DNA from: Cochliopodium minus
Lineage: Eukaryota; Discosea; Himatismenida; Cochliopodiidae
Direction of reading: 5' to 3'
NCBI GenBank assembly: GCA_024220525.1
Contig: JAMYWO010000053.1
Coordinates: 125,039-146,296 of the forward strand
DNA: 21,258 nucleotides
The notes under the pieces were generated by a model that worked only from the letters and a program-made list of their open reading frames with translations, had not been told where the DNA came from and searched no databases. The stretch's first letter is position 1, and each line of letters starts with the position of its first letter. The translations under genes and the position numbers were made by a program. Below are positions 3,101-17,741 of the stretch, one piece after another.

Positions 3101-5392
3101 ATGAAGAAATTGTTCTTCTATCTATTTATTTTCACCTTCCTATTTAATTATATCAATACCCAGATCCCAATAGGTGTATGTAACTTGAAGGGAACCAATC
3201 AAGACCCCACCATCAAAGGTCAAATCATCTTTCAAGCAGATCAGGAAAACAATATCCTCATTCTTGTGAATATTTCAGGTGTTACCCAAAACATTTCTTC
3301 CAATCATGGAATGCATATCCATCAATATGGTACCATCTCTTATTTATAATCTATATCTTTATTTTTTAAACTTATTTATTTAATATTAAAACAGGAGATA
3401 TAACATCTCTTGATGGAACATCGACTGGAGGTCATTTTATAGGTATTGGTAAGATATAATTTTCCAATAAAATTTCACTGAAATTTTTACTTTAAATCTC
3501 CTTTCTTATTTCTCTCAATTTATACTAAAATTACTCCGAATTTTGATTTAATTACTTCAAAAAGGTTCTCCAAATCATGGGTGCCCACCATCAAACAATA
3601 GACATGCAGGAGATATGGGAAATTGGTTTGTAAATTCACAAGGTATGATTTAAATTAAAATAATTTTGAAGAATAAGAACTTCTGATGCTTATCCCAAAC
3701 AATAAAACTAATAGAATTTAAAATTTTAAAATTATTTAATAATCACATTTCCTTTTGAAATTTGATAGGTTCCATAATAAGTTCTGAGGGCCTTCAAAAA
3801 TTTCCTATCATGTTCGGGGAAAACAGTATAATAGGAAGAGCAGTAATTCTCCACAGAGCAAGAGGTTTCTTTAAAAAGAAATAAATGAAAAATTTGAATA
3901 TTTTTCTTTGAACCTTTTTCAAAATAATTTTTTTTTTTTTAAAGATGATTGTGTTACTCAACCCACAGGTGATGCAGGAAGCAGATTGGCACAATGGTAA
4001 AATTTTGTTAAAAAAAAAATATTTTCAAAGTTTTAGTTCAAATAAATTTTTTATTTCATCCATTTTTTTTATTTTTATTTTATTTTATTTTTTTATTTTG
4101 TTCAGATTAGTTTGAATTAATTTTTTTTGTAATTTTTATAATTTATTTTTTCATATTTTTATTTTTATTTTTATTTTTTTGATCAAAAGTGTGATAGGAA
4201 TCGCAAATCCATCTCTTCTTTCCAAGACTAGCAACTTGGCAGTGGTTAATGACACAACAGTCACAAAAGCTGTATGCGTCCTCCAACCAACCACAAACTC
4301 CAACATTAGCGGGTAATAAAATAAGAAATAATTGATTTTAAATTTAAAAATTTTTTATTTTTTTAACATTTTTTTTTTAAAAAAATTATTTTACATTTTT
4401 TTATTTTTATTTTAATATTTATAGAACAATTTGGTTTGAACAAACAAATGGGAAAGTTCAAGTGACCGCTCGTGTATCTGGACTTTCCACGGGAAACGGA
4501 AGTGGTTTCTCTATAAACACATTTGGAGATATTTCATTGAATGGTAATTATGAATAATTTTATTTTATTTTTTATTTTTTATTTTTTATTTTTTATTTTT
4601 TATTTTTTATTTTTTATTTTTTATTTTTTATTTTTTATTTTTTTTATATTTTTATTTTTATTTTTTTAAAAGATGGATCATCTACTGGTGTCCATTACAA
4701 CCCTTTGAAAGAAAAACATGCAAGTCCTCCCACTAAAAAACGCCACTTGGGAGATTTGGGAAACATTGTTTATTCTACTCCAGACGGTGTTTTCTGGTAT
4801 CGCCAAACATTAAATAATTTCGGGTAAAAAAAAGTTTTTTAATTTTTAATTTTCTAAATTGAATTTTTTTATTTTTTTTTATTTTTTTAAACTGATTTTT
4901 ATTTATTTTTTTAGTTTGTCAAGAACAAATAATGTTTTAGGGAGAAGCGTAGCTATTTATAGTGGTTTTGATGATGGTTGTACACAACCAAGTGGTAAAT
5001 CTGGCAAAATAATTGCTCAATGGTAAAAATTCTCTTTATTTTTTTTTTTTATTTTTTTTTTTTATTTTTTAATTTCATTTTTTAATTTCATTTTTTTTGT
5101 TTGTTATTTTTTTTTAAATTCTTTCATTATTTTTTTTTTAAATTTTTTTTTTTTCAGTGTGATCGGCTCTGCAAACCCAACAACTCAGATTCCCACACCC
5201 CCAACAACTTTCGCAGAGATCAAACAACCAGATTGTGTTGGATTGAATGGAGCTTACGATTATGGAGTGGTAGCTGGCCTCGTCATAGCAATGTGTGTTG
5301 GTTTCATCATTCTTGGTTTCCTTATTTCTTATTGTGCAGTAAAAAAGGAAATTCCTGTAAATTACAGACCTTCTCATTTTTTGGAAGATTAA
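3101..5392 (+). CDS. Membrane-anchored protein with two Cu/Zn superoxide dismutase domains
   Basis: There are ten exons: 3101-3329, 3395-3448, 3565-3642, 3769-3864, 3945-3996, 4190-4312, 4425-4543, 4673-4823, 4915-5022, 5158-5392. They give 414 aa with continuous phase. Residues 1-20 are a signal peptide. Domain 1 (~24-177) has every metal ligand of a Cu/Zn dismutase: H72, H74, H90, H99, H108, D111, H149, plus the substrate-guiding arginine R166. Domain 2 (~196-344) keeps the zinc ligands H258, H266, H275 and D278. It has S240, N242 and Y316 at the copper-histidine positions, and K332 for the arginine. A hydrophobic segment (~372-398) and a 16-residue tail follow, so this is probably a type I membrane protein with the enzyme outside the cell or in a secretory lumen. 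Tandem SOD domains recall Dictyostelium SodC, which I remember as GPI-anchored; here the tail argues for a transmembrane anchor. Expected reaction: superoxide to O2 and H2O2, by domain 1. Confidence 0.88.
4557..4645 (+). repeat. ATTTTTT heptamer microsatellite in a dismutase intron
   Basis: The intron 4544-4672 is mostly a tandem array of the heptamer ATTTTTT, about ten near-perfect units, lying between two exons of the second dismutase domain. It is a local low-complexity expansion, in keeping with the T-rich sense strand of all introns in the window. Confidence 0.8.
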
Positions 5393-8310: not shown

Positions 8311-10283
8311 ATGAACAAAGAATTAAAATTGGTGGATTTGTATGAATTAGAGAATGCATTGCAGAGTATCCCTGAGAGTCTATTGGCAAAATCGTTGAAG
8401 CAAGTGGAATGCGAAGTAAAGACAACAAAAGAAGAAATGATAGAACAAATAATCGGGCTATGTATGGGAATAGGAATAGATACATTCGTGGAAGAAATAG
8501 ATGAGAATCTCTTGAGATTATGCTTGGAATCTTGTGAGATGAACATTTTGAAGGATAAAAAAAAATCACGTGCTAATTTATGTGAGAAAATTAAAAAGGA
8601 TGTCTCGTTGTTCTATTCTTCATTGAGGGATGAGGCTCTTTTCAAGATCTGCGAGCATCTCATGTTGGATCTCAATAGCGATCAGGATCTGATGTTGAAG
8701 ATGTCCATCTTGCACGTCACCATCCTCAGGGAAGTATTTTTGAGAGGTGTAGAGGAATTCTTCAATTCACTCACATTGGAATCCTTGAAATTGTATGCAA
8801 AGAATTTGAAAATGAAAAACATCAAAGGTATCTCTTTAAACTTTAATTTATTCTTTATATTATAAAAAATTTATTCACTTAAAATAATTTAAACTGAAAT
8901 ATTTTTATATTTTTGCTTATTCTTTTTTGAATATAGATTCATTTGATATGATTGAAGATATAATCAACCATATTTTCCATTTGGATTCTGAAGAAATAGA
9001 AACAATTGCAGAGAAAATGGACAACACTCATCTCGAAGTGACAACAGAGAAATCACCATCCAAATCCAAAAGAGTGATCGAAACAGATGAACCTGAAGAA
9101 AAAAAAATCTCACCAAAAAAGAATGAAAAGAATCAACAAAAACAAAAGGAAGAAGAAGCGATGGAAGACGAGGAAGAAGAAAAGAAGGAAGAGAAATCTT
9201 CAAAAAAGAAATCATCCAGCAAGATGATCGTGGTCAATGTTGAAGAGGAAGAGGAAGAAGAGATGGAGGAAGATAGCGTCTCTGAAGAAAAACCTGTCAA
9301 GAAATCTTCTAAAAGCAATCTCCCAAATAAAACCACATCAACAAAAAATACAGTAGAGAAGCCATCATCAAATCAAACAGCAACAACAAAGAAGACAGTA
9401 GAAAAAGAAAAAGAAAAAGAAGAAAAGAAAACTTCCTCCTCCTCTTCCAAAACTTCCGCTCCACAAAAAACCAAAAAAGAGACTGAGAAAAAAGTTACCA
9501 CTAAAAAAACATCAAAGAAAGAAGAGAGTGATGAAGAAAGTGATGAAGAAAGCTACCAAAGTGTAGAGAGTGAAGAAGAAAAACCAGCCAAAAAAACAAC
9601 AGCTAAAAGCACCACTTCAAAGAAAGTTGAACCTCCAAAGAAATCTACCACAACAACCAAATCAAAGAAAGAGGAAGTTAAACCTTCTTCCACTGCCAAA
9701 AAAACTTCCTCTAAGAAAATGGAGAGTGAAAGTGATGAAGAATCTTCTTCTGAAGAAGTAGAAGAGAAGGTCACCAAGAAAGTTGCAACAAAGAAAGAAG
9801 CTCCAAAAAAAGTTGAAGAAAAGAAAAAAGTTATCACCAAAAAAACTTCTAAAAAACAAGGTAAATAAAAAAAAACTTTTTCAATTTTTTTAAAATAATA
9901 ATTTAATTTTTTAAAAAAAAATTTTAGAAAGTGAAGAAGAAAGTAATGAAGAGAGTGACAGTGAAGAAAAAGTGACTTCACAAAAAAAAGAAACTTCCTC
10001 CAAATCAAAAACTACCTCTCAAAAATCCTCCGCAGTCAACAAAAAAGAAACTACCTCCAAAAAGAAAGTTGTAGAAGAGGATGAGGACAAAGAAAACGCA
10101 GCCCCAAAGAAATCAAACAAGAAATGTTTCCTCAAAATCTCTGATATCAAGCCAGGTATTTCTGCCAAGGAGTTGGATGAGATTTATGCGAATGATTTGA
10201 GAACTTATTGTAAGGAAAATCAGCTTGATTTTAAAGGAAGAAAACATAACCTCATTCAAAACATCTTAGATTCTTTTAAATAA
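8311..10283 (+). CDS. Lysine/glutamate/serine-rich, probably chromatin-associated protein with a C-terminal SAP-like motif
   Basis: Three exons, 8311-8827, 8937-9860 and 9928-10283, give 598 aa with continuous phase. Residues 1-~210 are helical and ordered. Residues ~230-540 are low complexity, alternating acidic and serine runs (EEEEEEEMEED, SDEESDEES) with many TTKK/KKTS-type basic blocks, as in nucleolar or chromatin proteins with casein-kinase-2-like sites. The C-terminus (LRTYCKENQLDFKGRKHNLI followed by QNILDSF) matches the helix-loop-helix spacing of a SAP domain, which binds A/T-rich DNA. Similar units may occur in the N-terminal part, for example LLRLCLESCEMNIL and LKLYAKNLKMKNIKDSF. 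A nuclear location is likely. I cannot name an orthologue; a DEK-like or nucleolin-like role is possible but unproven. It is convergent with the Sel1 fragment, 84 bp away. Confidence 0.75.
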
Positions 10284-10367: not shown

Positions 10368-10574
10368 TCAATTCTTCTTAATTCTTTTTTCCCATTCTGA
10401 AGACATTATGAAAAGTTGAATTGCTTTGAAGGTATTTTTTTCAACAATTCCTTCTTCTCCATATTGATAAATTAATGCAAGATTATACATTGAATTTGAA
10501 TTGTTTAATTGAATTGCTTTTTCATAAAGTTGAATTGCTTTCAAAATATCTTTTTCGATAATTCCTTTTTCACC
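10368..10574 (-). CDS. 3' end of a Sel1-repeat (TPR-like) protein gene, cut at an assembly gap
   Basis: Sixty-eight codons and a TGA stop are open on the minus strand up to the N at 10576. They hold two consecutive Sel1-type repeats with the phrases GEKGIIEKDILKAIQLYEKA, then LNNSNSMYNLALIYQYG, and then GEEGIVEKNTFKAIQL. The spacing is the usual ~36 residues. Sel1 repeats are helical scaffolds for protein-protein contacts and say nothing specific about function. The last repeat ends in a short unrelated tail. Upstream of the N the repeat does not continue, so the 5' part of this gene is missing from the window. The short piece does not show introns. Confidence 0.75.
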   Translation of the reverse strand, partial: GEKGIIEKDILKAIQLYEKAIQLNNSNSMYNLALIYQYGEEGIVEKNTFKAIQLFIMSSEWEKRIKKN

Positions 10575-10704: not shown

Positions 10705-13062
10705 TCAGTATTCATTAAAAGAGGTGGTTGCCTTTCTTTTTTTCTTATTGGAGTTTGCATTTATTGATTCGATGTCTACAGTGCCAAAATATTTAGAACA
10801 ACTATCCAACAACTTGGAGGAGCAAAGAAAAGTTGCGACCATGTACATAATTGGCTTTGTTAATTTCAAAACCTTTGAACAAAGTAACCAATACATCACA
10901 TCTTTTAAAATCAATAATAAACATAATAAACAAAAAAATAAAAATTTATATCAAAAAAATTATTTCAAATTAAAATAAATGATAATAAAATAAAAAATTG
11001 AATAAAACGAAAATATTTCAAATTAAAATAAAAAATAAGGAATAATAAAAATAAAAAATTAATAAAATAAAAAATTATTTTTAAAAAATAAAAAAAACAA
11101 ATATAAAAAAATTGATTAAAAAAGTTAAACTACCAGGTGTTGAAAAATCATGAGGGATGTACTTGTGCTTGAAAATCTTTTCTTTGAAAGAAACAAGCTC
11201 AGAAAGAGTTTTAAACTCAAGAGGATGAAAAGAAGAAGTGTGTTGGCCACCAGGATTAGAAATACGGTATCTGTCAACAATAGAAGCGTACTCATTGTAA
11301 TAAGCTTCGATGTTCTTCACTCTCAACTGATAAACAAACTCGGCCAACAATTTAGGTCTAACAGGATCGTTAATTTCGAACTTTGAAAAAGTGAGAGCAT
11401 TATCAGTTTTGGGGAAAGTACGATCATTGGTAGAGTAATGATTGATGAGATTGTATCTTGTTAGGTCTTTTTTCTTCATTTTGAGAGCCATGTCGAGGAA
11501 ATCTTGTTTGGGGAAGATCTTTCCGTTGGCGATGCTGAAGCAGTCGACTTGTCTCCTCATAAAACAAGAAAAGTTCAAAAACTTGATTTTCTGGTCCAAA
11601 GCAAAATACATGTTCTTGCCAAGCTTGATGGAATAATCATCGAAAAAGGCGCTGGAATTTCCTTTCGGGACGTGATACTGGTTCAATTTTTTGCGCTGAT
11701 ACATTCGACCATCGATTTTGGATTCATAAGCTTTGTTGGAGTGAATGGGGACGAAACCTTTCATACAATACTTTTTAATTCTGTAAGAAAAAGAGGAGCT
11801 GTACGCACAAAAGTTGATTGCGTTGATTCCGTACAAGATGGATGCTAACCCTCCTGTTGTTGTGAACACTTCTAGGTTTGAATTCATGTAGAATCTTGAG
11901 GAGTCGAGGTCGAATCCTCCTATCACTTGTTCGGGGCTGTCGTAGATCCTTTTTACTATTTGGAGCACTGGTTTTGTTAGTGTGGTGATGCTTTTGCTCG
12001 TTTCTATGCTTTTGTCTTCGAATTTGAAAGAGGGTCTTTTGCCAATACAAAATAGATCATAATCTTTGTTAAAAATTAAAATTAAATTAATCGGATTTCC
12101 CAAATGAAAATTTGTTGGTAAAAATGATTGTTAATTGGATCAATATTAATCAACATATACTAATGATAATATGATTATTTGAAGTATCTTATGTTGAGAT
12201 TATAAATCGATCAAATCATATGCAGATTAAATTCTCACGAAAAAATTCTCAAATATATTGAAATTCATTCTCCAATAATCAAAGAGATATATCTCATTCT
12301 CCAACTCAAATGAGATTTATCCATTCAAATCAAAGAAATAATTTGATTGCAAAAAATTATTTAAAAGTATAAAATATTTAGCTTCTATAATCACTTGTCC
12401 CTTTTAAATTATTACCCTTTATCCATGCAGATCTTCCTTTCAATAAATCCACAATTGATCCTCCCGCCAAAATCAAATTCCCTTCGTTTTCATAGAGTAA
12501 TTGTAATACTTCAGCATCTATCGTGGCTCCATTGGCCTTTTCGAAATTAAAGAGAGAGCTTTGAAAATTGAAAACATTCCCATCATTGACAAATTTTCCT
12601 AAATCAGTTAACAAAATTATGAATTTTTTAATCTTAAAAAAGCAAAAAAATAATTTGTTATTTTACCCAATCTTTGTATTGGCCAATTCATACATTTTCT
12701 AATTCAATTATGTTTTTTTTTTGAGTATATAACTGACAAATTTAATTTATTTTTTTTTACCTTGAAAATTCTTGGACGAGAATGCACATATCAGCTATCT
12801 TTACCCTCTCAATGTGTTGATCATTTGGTCCTCTCTTTTTCCTTGATAATCGATAATTTACTTTGGGCTTTCCACAGTACAATTTCAAGAAATTCTCAAC
12901 AAAATGTTCACTACCTATCTTTATCAAATCCTTTCCATACTCATCATCATCATCATCTCCTTCATCAATGAACTCATTATCCTCATCATTTTTTATTAAT
13001 CTTGATTTAGCTTCTAATTCAACCACATTGATATCTTCATCGTCACAATAATCGTCTTCCAT
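10705..13062 (-). CDS. Nucleotidyltransferase-fold protein, tandem copy A
   Basis: Exons in coding order: 13062-12761, 12698-12667, 12598-12416, 12063-11134, 10901-10705; 547 aa. The acidic N-terminus (~1-45, with a DEGDDDDDEYGKD run) is followed by a helical part with KIADMCILVQEFSRKCMNW. Residues 153-178 read LILAGGSIVDLLKGR...DYDLFC: the G-G-S and D-x-D signature of the nucleotidyltransferase fold (poly(A)-polymerase/CCA-enzyme type), G157-G158 and D173/D175. IVKRIYDSPEQVIGGFDLD follows, with D224/D226 as a candidate third acidic residue. The distal part has GGQHTSSFHPLEF. The tail is hydrophobic then basic (NKKKRK), possibly a nuclear signal. I recall similar D-x-D/F-D-x-D proteins, often with ankyrin repeats, in protists and giant viruses, but the activity is unproven. 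The gene lies 127 bp downstream of its paralogue. Confidence 0.75.
11183..11357. repeat. 175-nt block identical to 13633-13807
   Basis: Every base, including third codon positions, matches the paralogue over 175 nt in the distal part of exon 4 (coding for the KLLAEFVYQLRVKN to SFHPLEF region). Both sides diverge at once. This is a paralogous segment, not an independent mobile element. Confidence 0.95.
11850..11959. repeat. 110-nt block identical to 14291-14400
   Basis: This block encodes the IYDSPEQVIGGFDLD part of the nucleotidyltransferase region and is identical in the two tandem genes, synonymous sites included. Adjacent exon 3, of similar importance, carries several silent differences. 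Confidence 0.95.
12064..12415 (-). other. 352-nt intron splitting the nucleotidyltransferase motif in copy A
   Basis: It runs from GTAATA to CAAAG in the coding direction, phase 1, and separates the G-G-S exon from the D-Y-D exon. It is A/T-rich without an ORF. A short palindrome (GAGATATATCTC) occurs near 12285-12296. The equivalent intron in copy B is 14502-14815 (314 nt), at the same codon and phase. Confidence 0.75.
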
Positions 13063-13189
13063 TCTTTTTTTTCTTTTTTTTTGTTTTTGATTTTATTTGA
13101 TAATATTTATTTTTTTTTGATTCAAAATATTTTTAATGTGAAAAAACAATTTATTTATCTAGGAAAATTTTTTTTTTTTAATTAAAATT

Positions 13190-15380
13190 CTAATTAAATA
13201 ATTCTGATTCACTATCATCCGAGTTGAAAAATCCTTTTCTCTTCCTATTTTCGACAATCTGTTCGTTTGGCTTTTTTTTCTTGAAATTTCCAGAGCAATA
13301 ATCCAACAACTTGGAGGAACAAAGAAAAGTTGCAACCATATACATGATTGGCTTTGGTATTTTCATAAATTTTGAAGAAAGCAACCAATACATCACATCT
13401 ATTTTTTAAATAAATTATTTCAAATTAAAAAAATTAACAAAAAAATAAAAATAAAAAAATTATTTAAAATTAAAAAATAAAACGTCAGTTTTTAATAAAA
13501 ATAAAAAATTAATAAAATAAAAAATTATTTTTAAAAAATTAATAAAACAAAATTAAAAAAATTGATTAAAAAAGTTAAAGTACCAGGTGTTGAAAAATCA
13601 TGAGGAATGTATTTTTCTTTAAATATCTTTTGTTTGAAAGAAACAAGCTCAGAAAGAGTTTTAAACTCAAGAGGATGAAAAGAAGAAGTGTGTTGGCCAC
13701 CAGGATTAGAAATACGGTATCTGTCAACAATAGAAGCGTACTCATTGTAATAAGCTTCGATGTTCTTCACTCTCAACTGATAAACAAACTCGGCCAACAA
13801 TTTAGGTTTAACAGGATGATTGATTCCCAAATTAGAAAAAGAGACAGCATTTTCAGTTTTAGGAAAAATATGACCAGAAATGACATAATACTTGGTGAGG
13901 TGTAAAATGTTGATGTCTTTTTCTCTTTCTCTCATTTCGAGAGCTAAATCGAGGAAATCTTGTTTGGGGAAGATCTTTCCGTTGGCGATGCAAAAATGAT
14001 CGACCTGCTGTCTCACTAAACTGGAGAAATTCAAAAACTTGATTTTCTCGTCGAAAGAAAAGTAGGCGCTGGTGCTAAGTTTGACGGAATAATCATCGAA
14101 ATGAGCATAAAGAAAAACTAGAGGCGGGTAAAATTTTTTTGAAAATTCACAAGTATCCCTCTCTTCGTAAGCTTTGTTGGAATAAATGGGGAGAAATCCT
14201 TTTTGTTTGTATTTTCTGATTCTACGCGGAAAAGAGGAGCTGTACGCACAAAAATTGATTGCATTTATTTTGTGGAAAAATGAAGCCAAGCCTCCTGTTG
14301 TTGTGAACACTTCTAGGTTTGAATTCATGTAGAATCTTGAGGAGTCGAGGTCGAATCCTCCTATCACTTGTTCGGGGCTGTCGTAGATCCTTTTTACTAT
14401 CTGTATGATTGGATTTGTTAAGGTGGAGATACTTTTGCTTGTTTCAATGTATTTTTCTGATTTGAATTTGGGTCTTTTCCCAATACAAAACATATCATAA
14501 TCTTTGATTTTAAAAAATTAAATCAGGAGGTTTTTTTTCTTATTATTTAAAAATATTTTTTTTATTTTTTAAAGTTCTTTAAAGTTTATATCTCTAGTTT
14601 TCTTGTTTAAAAATAATTTTAACATTTTAATAATTTAATATTTTATCAAATTATTTATTTTTTTATTTTTATTTTATTTTTTAATTCAAAACCTTTCGGT
14701 TAAATGTACAAAAAATTTATTACATCGTTTGTTAGTTTATTAATCATAAATTTTTAAGTTGTAAAACTAAAGAGTCTGACATTCTTTCATTTTTTTTTCA
14801 TTTTTTATTTTTTACCTTTTAAATGATAGAAACTACCTCTCAAAATGTCCACAATCGATCCTCCTGCCAATATCAAATTTCCTTCGTTTTCAAAAAGCAA
14901 TGCTATTACCTCTGCATCTATTTTCACTTTTTTTGCTTGAGGAAAATCAAAGAGTTCACTCTCAAATTTGTAAGAATTTGACTTATTCACGAATGTTCCT
15001 TTTTACAAGTATATTTGATATGAAATTATAAATATTTCTGAATTATTAATCTCACCTAATTTTTGAATAGGCCAATTCATACACTTCCTATTGGATTTTT
15101 ATTTTTCATTAATTTATGAAATATTTTTTTTTATTTGAGGAATTATTTTTTACCTTGAAAATTCTTGGAAGAGGATACATAAATCTGCTATCTTTATTAT
15201 ATTTTTTTGTTTCTCTGTTATTTTGGGGATTATCTTTTTTTTTTTCTGTTTAGGCTTCCAACAGTATAATTTGAAGAAATTATCAACAAAATCTTCACTA
15301 CCCATCTCTATATCATCTTTTACATTCTCATCATCAACAACATCAATATTATGATCCTCTTCTTCCAAAAAGAAATCCAT
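13190..15380 (-). CDS. Nucleotidyltransferase-fold protein, tandem copy B
   Basis: Exons in coding order: 15380-15154, 15087-15056, 14998-14816, 14501-13584, 13398-13190; 522 aa. Exons 2 and 3 are exactly 32 and 183 nt, as in copy A. The acidic N-terminus is shorter (~1-30). Signature: LILAGGSIVDILRG (G132-G133), DYDMFCIGKRP (D148/D150) and VIGGFDLD (D197/D199), so all three acidic clusters are kept. The middle of exon 4 has drifted strongly from copy A, while two blocks (13633-13807 and 14291-14400) are identical to it base for base. The C-terminal exon has MYWLLSSK, the shared block KPIMYMVATFLCSSKLLD, and a different tail with a basic patch (ENRKRKGFF) and acidic end. An active nucleotidyltransferase is possible; substrate and role are unknown. 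The frame is intact, so both copies look functional. Confidence 0.75.
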
Positions 15381-15919
15381 TTTTTTTATTTATTTATTTT
15401 TTTTTTTTAATTTTATTATTTTATTTTATTTTCAAAAAACAAAACCAAAAATTTTTTGTATAATTTTCAGAAAAAAACTATTTTAAAAAAAAAAACCAAA
15501 AAATTTTTTTATTTATTTAAAATATAATAGAATTTGCTATCTTTCAAAGGATCTTTGAGACCCATCTTCTTAGCTTCCTGTTTAATTAACAAATCCAAAC
15601 TCTCACAAGGTCTTCCACCTTGAACCTTATAACCAACACCTAACAAAAAAAAAAAAATAAAAAATAAAAAAATAAAAATAAAAAATATAAAATAAAAAAA
15701 AATAAAAAATAAAAATAAAAATAATTAAAAATAAAAAAATATTTCATTTAATTTTTACCTTCTGTGTAAATTATACGGTAATGATTAGCAACATTTTTTT
15801 GTCGATACAAGTGACAGTGTAGCTTCCAGGGAAGAGCTGAAACGAAGGACCCATGTTCCTGCTTTTGGTTGGCAAGAGCCTTTTCTGCTTCTTGTACGGA
15901 GAAATTACCATAAAAGCCG

Positions 15920-16434: not shown

Positions 16435-16768
16435 CTAAGAATTAAATATAAAAATATGAATGAAAAAAAAATCAAAAATCAAAATAATCTGAAATAAAGA
16501 TATAGATAAAAATAAAAATAAAAATAAAATAAAAAATAAAAAAATAAAAAAATAAGATTAAGCAAATGGTTGTTCAAAAATATTATGAAGAAAAAAAAAA
16601 TTAATAAAAATAAAAGAATAAAATAAAAAGTAAAAATAAAAACTGAAATATGGATAGAATAAAAAAATAATAAAAATAGATAAAAATAAAAAAATAATAG
16701 ATAAAAAAATAAATGAAAAATGAAAAATATAGATAATAAAAAATGAATAAAATACATAAAATTCTTAC
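16435..16768 (-). other. 334-nt intron between the kinase and linker exons
   Basis: Donor GTAAGA and acceptor TTCTTAG in the coding direction, phase 0. It contains only low-complexity A/T sequence on both strands. Confidence 0.6.
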
Positions 16769-17066
16769 ACCATCAATCTCCAAAAAATTGTTGGTCCAAA
16801 AGCCCAAAGCATTCTTATCAAACCCCAACAAATAAGTTGCGCAAATGTGTTCAAAGCTCTTCTCCTTCATCAACAAAGTGAAGGAAGGTCTCTCCTCAGG
16901 GTTGGAGTCCCAACACTTCTTGAGGAGTTCTTTGAGGAGTTTGGGACAACTTTCCGGGATGGATGGTCTGCGATTGTCGTTGCAAACGTCGTCTAGGAGC
17001 TCTGTGATTGATAATCCCTCGTATGCGATTTTTAACGTGAGTATTTCCCATACTATAATCGCAAAA

Positions 17067-17377
17067 CTGCAAGAAGGAATTTTCATAAAAATTTTAAAAA
17101 TGTAAAATAATGTGTTTGCTTGAATAAAAAATAAATCAACAAAAACAATCAATCCTCTAATAAGAACGAGAAATATTGAAAATAAAAATAATCAATCTGC
17201 TATTAAAATTTAATGAAAGTATAAAATAAAATGTTAAAAATAAAACGTTCAAAATAAGTTTAATTAAAAAATAAATATAATTTTAAATTGGGTTTAGAAA
17301 AAGAAACAAATAAAAAAATGTTGATTGTTTGATTTTAAATTAATGTCAAAAGTTTTTTTTTTAAAAAAAAATTATAC
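17067..17377 (-). other. 311-nt intron inside the kinase domain
   Basis: Lies between CDVY and FAIIVWEIL, with the serine codon split across the junction (phase 2). Donor GTATAA, acceptor CTTGCAG. It contains no ORF of interest. Confidence 0.7.
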
Positions 17378-17741
17378 CTGTAGACATCACATTTATTATT
17401 GAAATTTTGCTTCATCAAGATTTCAGGTGCCAAATAATTGAAATTGAAATCTTGCAAATGAGTATTCCTCAATCTTTTCTTGGCCTCATAAAAGCCATAA
17501 TCTGTCAATTTGACATTATTGTTCTTATCGATGATTATCGTGGTGGTATCCAAATTATAAAAGATTATATTGCTGTTATGCAACCAATTCATCCCAAATA
17601 CAATCTGTTTGCATATCTTCATCTTTAACGAGAAGGAGATCACTTTTTCTCCTTTCTTCAAATATGACGATAAATTTTCTCCTTCTACATATTCTGATGA
17701 GATTAGATATGGTATCGAATCTAAGCATACTCCCTATCAAA

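Follow-up and report, generated by a model that had tools for sequence, protein, structure and literature searches.

The phage protein Gad2 is reportedly predicted, by the authors of its original description, to contain a nucleotidyltransferase domain. It is named as an anti-Gabija protein in the accessible part of PMC11263360 and is given without a Pfam domain in the accessible part of PMC10767833; in the portion of PMC12904381 that was available, its mechanism against Gabija is described as yet to be elucidated. Two adjacent genes of Cochliopodium minus, here called A and B, encode proteins that can be compared with this phage protein. They were studied in a 21,258-nucleotide (nt) stretch of contig C53 (JAMYWO010000053.1; assembly of 44.65 Mb in 598 contigs), and this whole stretch is referred to as the window. 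Judged by profile comparison, the core of both proteins is nearest, among the databases searched, to the Gad2-like proteins of tailed phages, and closer to these than to CCA-adding enzymes. With a probability of about 60%, A and B belong to a eukaryotic family of template-independent nucleotidyltransferases that is specific to this lineage and has expanded in tandem, possibly under conflict.

Each gene consists of five exons and four GT-AG introns, and the spliced frames contain no stops (Table 1). The intron positions match between the two genes, and spliced alignment of protein A to the DNA of B returns the four introns of B. A preliminary description of this DNA, made from its letters, had reported the motifs GGS, DYD and GGFDLD in both proteins. 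All three are present; the spacing from the first G of GGS to DYD is 16 residues instead of the 14 given there, and the step of about 50 residues from DYD to GGFDLD measures 48-49 from start to start. GGS and DYD lie on separate exons, and intron 3 splits the codon for the first D of DYD in both A and B. The acidic N-termini and C-terminal basic clusters that had been noted are likewise found in both proteins, the latter as KKKK and RKRK in A and as KKKRK in B. In its own genome, protein B yields 75 exon-level matches at E ≤ 1, of which 9 are on C53 and 66 elsewhere (best match off C53, 4.4e-113). A and B are thus real genes with a similarity far beyond chance.

Up to 25 further family gene places on 12 other contigs were resolved with a spliced-alignment script: 11 on C247, two each on C331, C276 and C7, and one each on C127, C1, C65, C4, C117, C76, C145 and C99. 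The preliminary description had suggested a search for further copies and a lineage-specific, expanded, recombining family; these places, together with the exchanges between A and B described below, agree with that suggestion. Including A and B, the 27 places are an upper count of the genes seen, some being fragments or lying at contig ends, and the search itself gives a lower bound. First-pass paralog models with introns longer than 1,000 nt had fused neighbouring copies and were replaced by later models; the 12-member alignment of the family core was built solely from core stretches of the first-pass models. The GG..D, D-x-D and FD motifs are all kept in each of the 20 places in which the core is aligned (18 of the 25, plus A and B), among them the C4 copy, whose model has an in-frame stop. 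Six of the remaining seven places lack the core as recovered, and in C331_1655 the core is represented by its later portion alone, FD block included. Contig C331 carries two near-identical copies on opposite strands (354-1655 and 13878-15844), the first without N-terminal motifs as recovered, and the pair is read as a recent duplication. On C7, about 8 kb separates an N-terminal from a C-terminal family piece of the same strand, the C-terminal one lying upstream; the two may be incomplete copies or parts of a single gene that was rearranged.

Selection was assessed with our own Nei-Gojobori script in 15 copies of at least 380 amino acids (aa) without stops, A and B included. Over the resulting 105 pairs, the ratio of the proportions of nonsynonymous and synonymous differences (pN/pS) has a median of 0.46 and a maximum of 0.58, so the 15 copies are under purifying selection and are maintained on average. 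Between A and B, the nonsynonymous divergence (dN) is 0.23 and the synonymous divergence (dS) is 0.65, and their codon alignment of 514 codons is 76% identical overall. This alignment contains two long tracts in which A and B are identical (Table 1). A run as long as the 175-nt tract was reached in none of 2000 codon shuffles, in which the longest run was 58. When only amino-acid-identical columns are used, the longest stretch of identical codons measures 61, a length that again none of 2000 shuffles reached (longest, 40). Because these long identical runs were never matched in 2000 shuffles, A and B have exchanged sequence, and the 110-nt and 175-nt tracts are likely to be products of gene conversion.

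To place the core, it was compared with protein families and with profiles of phage and cellular enzymes. Full-length A and B match no Pfam family at E ≤ 5, ankyrin included. PolyA_pol (PF01743) matches 10 of the 12 family cores weakly, with a best E of 7.9e-4, and all 12 cores match phrog_1614 (nucleotidyltransferase) and phrog_4400 (unknown function), with best values of 1.8e-9 and 5.6e-9, respectively. In hhalign, the 12-row family core aligns with a Gad2-headed profile of 14 phage members over 135 columns (probability 98.4, E 1e-14), and a second, script-made pair of family and phage alignments gives a probability of 97.7 and an E of 1.5e-12. The corresponding values are 83.9 and 7.8e-6 for Gad2 alone and 78.4 and 1.7e-5 for the heads of CCA-adding enzymes and poly(A) polymerases (CCA/PAP; eight rows, of which one, L179, was misread in frame). 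When the phage side is itself compared with CCA enzymes, the mixed phage profile gives an E of 4.1e-6 and the larger Gad2-only profile one of just 0.0023. The family resembles Gad2, the Gad2-like phage proteins, phrog_1614 and phrog_4400 over about 135 columns, in which GG, D-x-D, [IL]-[QE]-[LMI]-I, FD(F/L) and R..KY..(K/R)G(Y/F) follow one another in the same order. In contrast to Gad2, A and B are eukaryotic and intron-bearing proteins of 522 and 547 aa with an acidic N-terminal part, from a family with up to 27 places in one genome. With the class-II CCA-adding enzymes and bacterial poly(A) polymerase I, the family has GG and D-x-D in common, and its FDL(D/E) aligns with RRDFT. However, the best family exon in the genome scores 20.4 bits against PF01743, below the Pfam cut-off of 23. 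In a tree of 41 rows (12 family cores, 14 phage rows, 8 of the 54 viral rows and 7 of the 8 CCA/PAP rows, the misread L179 being left out), the family lies on one side of a branch with 100/100 support, and the CCA/PAP rows form a separate clade on another 100/100 branch. A back-search of the C. minus genome with phrog_1614 gives 16 matches, 14 of which are family members; two places that exceed the PolyA_pol cut-off rank 14th and 15th. The Gad2 core finds one place in this genome, a family member, weakly (E 0.017). The preferred view is that the family was captured from viruses or is shared with them.

The fold was approached through a model of the Gad2 core, which has a predicted local distance difference test score (pLDDT) of 90 and matches the heads of class-II CCA-adding enzymes and poly(A) polymerases, followed by FAM46/TENT5 (Foldseek E 3e-3). 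Very probably, the family core, of about 150 residues, is also of this head type, the fold being read from the modelled relative Gad2 and not from A and B themselves. No TENT5 family appears in the listed Pfam results of A, B or the cores. The nucleotidyltransferase superfamily to which A and B had first been assigned holds for the core, as judged from phrog_1614 in all 12 cores, the match to the Gad2-like profile and the match of the Gad2-core model to CCA-adding enzymes. A connection to ankyrin-bearing giant-virus proteins, also raised at that stage, has indirect support. In BFVD, the Gad2-core model matches proteins of Klosneuvirus, Catovirus, Pithovirus, Megavirus, Terrestrivirus and an entomopoxvirus with E values of about 1e-7 to 1e-5, several of them annotated as ankyrin repeat or F-box proteins. 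These proteins are reached via the Gad2 model, not via A or B, and an ankyrin link of A and B was rejected, as neither full-length protein has any Pfam match.

The preliminary description had taken GGFDLD as the third acid and all acidic motifs as intact. GG..D and D-x-D are kept, but GGFDLD lines up with RRD, a motif of the CCA enzymes. FD(F/L) falls on RD(F) in four of four alignments, namely the HMMER alignment of phage sequence with 1miv (FDFT on RRDFT) and the hhalign alignments of the family, mixed-phage and Gad2-only profiles; because all four agree, GGFDLD is assigned as the counterpart of RRD. The Glu of FEVTTFR, present in all seven correctly read CCA/PAP rows, is what we take to be the third catalytic carboxylate, a metal ligand, of class-II enzymes. 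The strand ahead of FDLD (IQIIKRIY) has a Gln in all 21 family places that cover the position. Among 54 Gad2-like viral rows, 53 have the same Gln, as do 10 of the 14 rows in the mixed phage set, where the remaining four carry Glu. In the hhalign alignment of the mixed phage profile, this Gln is put on the CCA Glu, whereas the family and Gad2-only hhalign alignments, as well as the HMMER alignment with 1miv, place the Gln strand elsewhere. The misread row L179 was kept out of the Glu count but is contained in the hhalign alignment against CCA/PAP. A Gln at the third-acid place of the family is therefore a possible reading. Because the residue at this place depends on the alignment, activity is not readable from the motifs, and the earlier statements that all acidic motifs are intact and that A and B are active transferases go further than the motifs allow.

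The Gln that falls on the CCA/PAP Glu in one of three profile alignments would also fit a pseudo-nucleotidyltransferase, in which the fold is kept but binds nucleotides, RNA or a viral partner as a scaffold or decoy, and no transfer takes place; the strongly conserved block in the C-terminal half would suit such a binding role. This explanation is considered unlikely. A dead enzyme need not keep GG..D and both D residues of D-x-D in 20 of 20 places, the same Gln prevails among the phage relatives, and the two other profile alignments and the 1miv alignment do not put it on Glu. Catalysis by A and B is instead held to be probable.

The C-terminal half is the best candidate for the target-binding part of the proteins. 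Its most conserved block (Table 1) includes NPG.Q.TSSFHP, which is invariant in all eight aligned family rows; mean column identity is 56% over the C-terminal 200 residues (8 rows) compared with 68% in the core (12 rows). In the mechanism proposed, the D-x-D pair, with GG, would bind metal (Mg) and a nucleoside triphosphate, and one or a few nucleoside monophosphate units would be transferred to a target without a template. The family-specific C-terminal half would pick this target, most likely an RNA 3' end and otherwise a protein. The RNA 3' end is favoured because the head is CCA- and TENT5-like, and RNA as the target is given slightly less than an even chance. The genes, the family, the homology of the core, the fold of the nearest modelled relative, the selection and the conversion are the observed ground on which these proposed steps are built.

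Several results weigh against an active, Gad2-related nucleotidyltransferase family amplified under conflict. The match of the family core to 54 Gad2-like viral sequences (probability 94.9, E 4.5e-8) is weaker than that to the mixed phage profile. A and B, in which the core is split by an intron, are absent from the list of phrog_1614 matches in their own genome, and phrog_1614, which also finds matches in 9 of 14 control genomes, thus lacks specificity for Gad2-like proteins. Similarity between single sequences is weak: when phages were searched by tblastn with member C117, five weak records were obtained, with Stenotrophomonas phage DLP_6 (E 0.02) at the head of the list. The tree places the family among the phage rows, but with open forks and a long branch. 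A model of exon 4 of B, built with A and ten phage rows, reached a pLDDT of 39.3 and was discarded. If Gln does replace Glu at the third-acid place, the enzyme might have a changed catalytic activity or none. The C-terminal half has no sequence match in the PDB and no Pfam family in A or B, and its family profile (8 rows) bears no likeness to the C-terminal half of Gad2 in hhalign against a Gad2 alignment of 4 rows (probability 0.2, E 0.35). Finally, the putative link to conflict is drawn from the evolutionary pattern and the name of one distant relative.

A housekeeping role, as a diverged CCA-adding or TENT5-like terminal nucleotidyltransferase acting on the cell's own RNA, would agree with the nearest folds of the Gad2-core model, which are the CCA-adding enzymes and FAM46/TENT5. 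It is nevertheless improbable: PolyA_pol is matched above the Pfam cut-off at separate places of the genome (on C53, C155 and C386), profiles and tree both put the core nearer to phage families than to CCA enzymes, and up to 27 places with tandem arrays and conversion would be unusual for a housekeeping gene. The chances are similarly low for a protein-modifying (AMPylating or UMPylating) nucleotidyltransferase of the MNT/MenT kind, for which the protein mentioned above as the other conceivable target would be the substrate. An annotation or contamination artefact is highly improbable given the introns, the in-frame splicing, the 25 further places on 12 other contigs and the purifying selection in 15 copies.

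For the preferred reading, a lineage-specific nucleotidyltransferase family amplified under conflict, a role against viruses or other invaders is suggested because purifying selection, tandem duplication and gene conversion occur together with a relation to a counter-defence protein; this role is proposed tentatively. A bolder version, which is doubtful, would make this an immune-type family: the protist would have captured a viral Gad2-like enzyme of counter-defence, joined a new recognition half to it, and would maintain a recombining tandem array of the product as an arsenal for defence or counter-counter-defence, in which added nucleotides serve to tag viral or cellular RNA (or proteins). 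With its Gad2-homologous core and many diverging copies, the eukaryotic family offers a second, independent route to the function of this enzyme type. If the conflict role is true, nucleotide transfer by a Gad2-like core would join the activities common to phage-bacteria warfare and eukaryotic immunity.

Gad2-like proteins were found in 192 phage records at E ≤ 0.001 and, with a single pattern scan, in 15 bacterial genomes. Stenotrophomonas phage DLP_6 has two diverged Gad2-like genes, AAY80_218 and AAY80_219, which overlap head to tail (L051:1867-2998) in a tandem like that of A and B. With AAY80_219 as the query, 118 phage records were obtained, one of which is annotated as Gad2 (Bacillus phage SPbetaL6, WIT27925.1). 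The Gad2 core also matches the PADLOC candidate PDC-S19 weakly (E 3.1e-4), so bacterial defence may include a related core; two family cores had no match in PADLOC. In viral contigs, neither protein B nor the family core profile found a close relative. A DNA pattern for the FD block gave one hit there, L064, with no relative among the open reading frames listed around it, and one for the NP..Q.T.SF(N/H)P block gave none; each is a single strict pattern and is not proof of absence. The family core profile found no close relative in prokaryote genome contigs, and the divergent member C65 had no match among plasmids. For the RNA-ligase-associated nucleotidyltransferase RlaP, taken from its description in the accessible part of PMC7824862, no model appears in the listed Pfam matches of A, B, the 12 cores and the 14 phage relatives. 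A match of the acidic N-terminus of B to a phage portal protein in the PDB (E 0.031) was set aside as chance-like. No description of the C. minus family came up in searches of an open-access collection of papers, and PMC3493329, PMC5871332, PMC10286901 and PMC10781630 contributed nothing on it.

Table 1 Genes, motifs and identical tracts of the A/B pair (positions in the window)
Feature	Position	Strand	Details
Gene A	15380-13190	minus	522 aa; exons 15380-15154, 15087-15056, 14998-14816, 14501-13584, 13398-13190
Gene B	13062-10705	minus	547 aa; exons 13062-12761, 12698-12667, 12598-12416, 12063-11134, 10901-10705
A motif 1, GGSIVDIL	14864-14841	minus	exon 3; from translation; aligns to AGG/VGG in phage and CCA profiles
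B motif 1, GGSIVDLL	12464-12441	minus	exon 3; from translation; aligns to AGG/VGG in phage and CCA profiles
A D-x-D motif, DYDMF	14501-14488	minus	first residues of exon 4; preceded by K as K-DYD-[ML]-F
B D-x-D motif, DYDLF	12063-12050	minus	first residues of exon 4; preceded by K as K-DYD-[ML]-F
A GGFDLD	14361-14344	minus	aligns to FDFT of the phage proteins and to RRDFT of the CCA-adding enzymes
B GGFDLD	11920-11903	minus	aligns to FDFT of the phage proteins and to RRDFT of the CCA-adding enzymes
A SNPGGQHTSSFHP	13710-13672	minus	most conserved block of C-terminal half; 8-row alignment
B SNPGGQHTSSFHP	11260-11222	minus	most conserved block of C-terminal half; 8-row alignment
Identical A/B tract, 110 nt	B 11959-11850, A 14400-14291	minus	spans GGFDLD; run-length analysis, placed by sequence reading
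Identical A/B tract, 175 nt	B 11357-11183, A 13807-13633	minus	spans SNPGGQHTSSFHP; run-length analysis, placed by sequence reading

Scans of the window with Rfam (gathering scores) and for tRNA genes gave no hits, and several protein-coding features surround the pair. Just downstream of gene B, an open stretch on the minus strand (10371-10574) contains two Sel1 repeats (Pfam Sel1 E 3e-13) and adjoins an undetermined base N; ending at a stop, it looks like a gene tail or fragment. Exons of a tyrosine-kinase-like protein kinase lie at 16604-17661 on the minus strand (PK_Tyr_Ser-Thr E 9e-13 and 3e-15), and the first part of a gene for Cu/Zn superoxide dismutase, including a signal-like leader, is seen at 3101-3349 on the plus strand (Sod_Cu E 4e-5, below the cut-off). 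At 8927-10283, also on the plus strand, a long low-complexity frame rich in Lys, Glu and Ser precedes a weak SAP domain (E 2e-4, likewise below the cut-off), and the two perhaps form one DNA-binding, chromatin-type protein.

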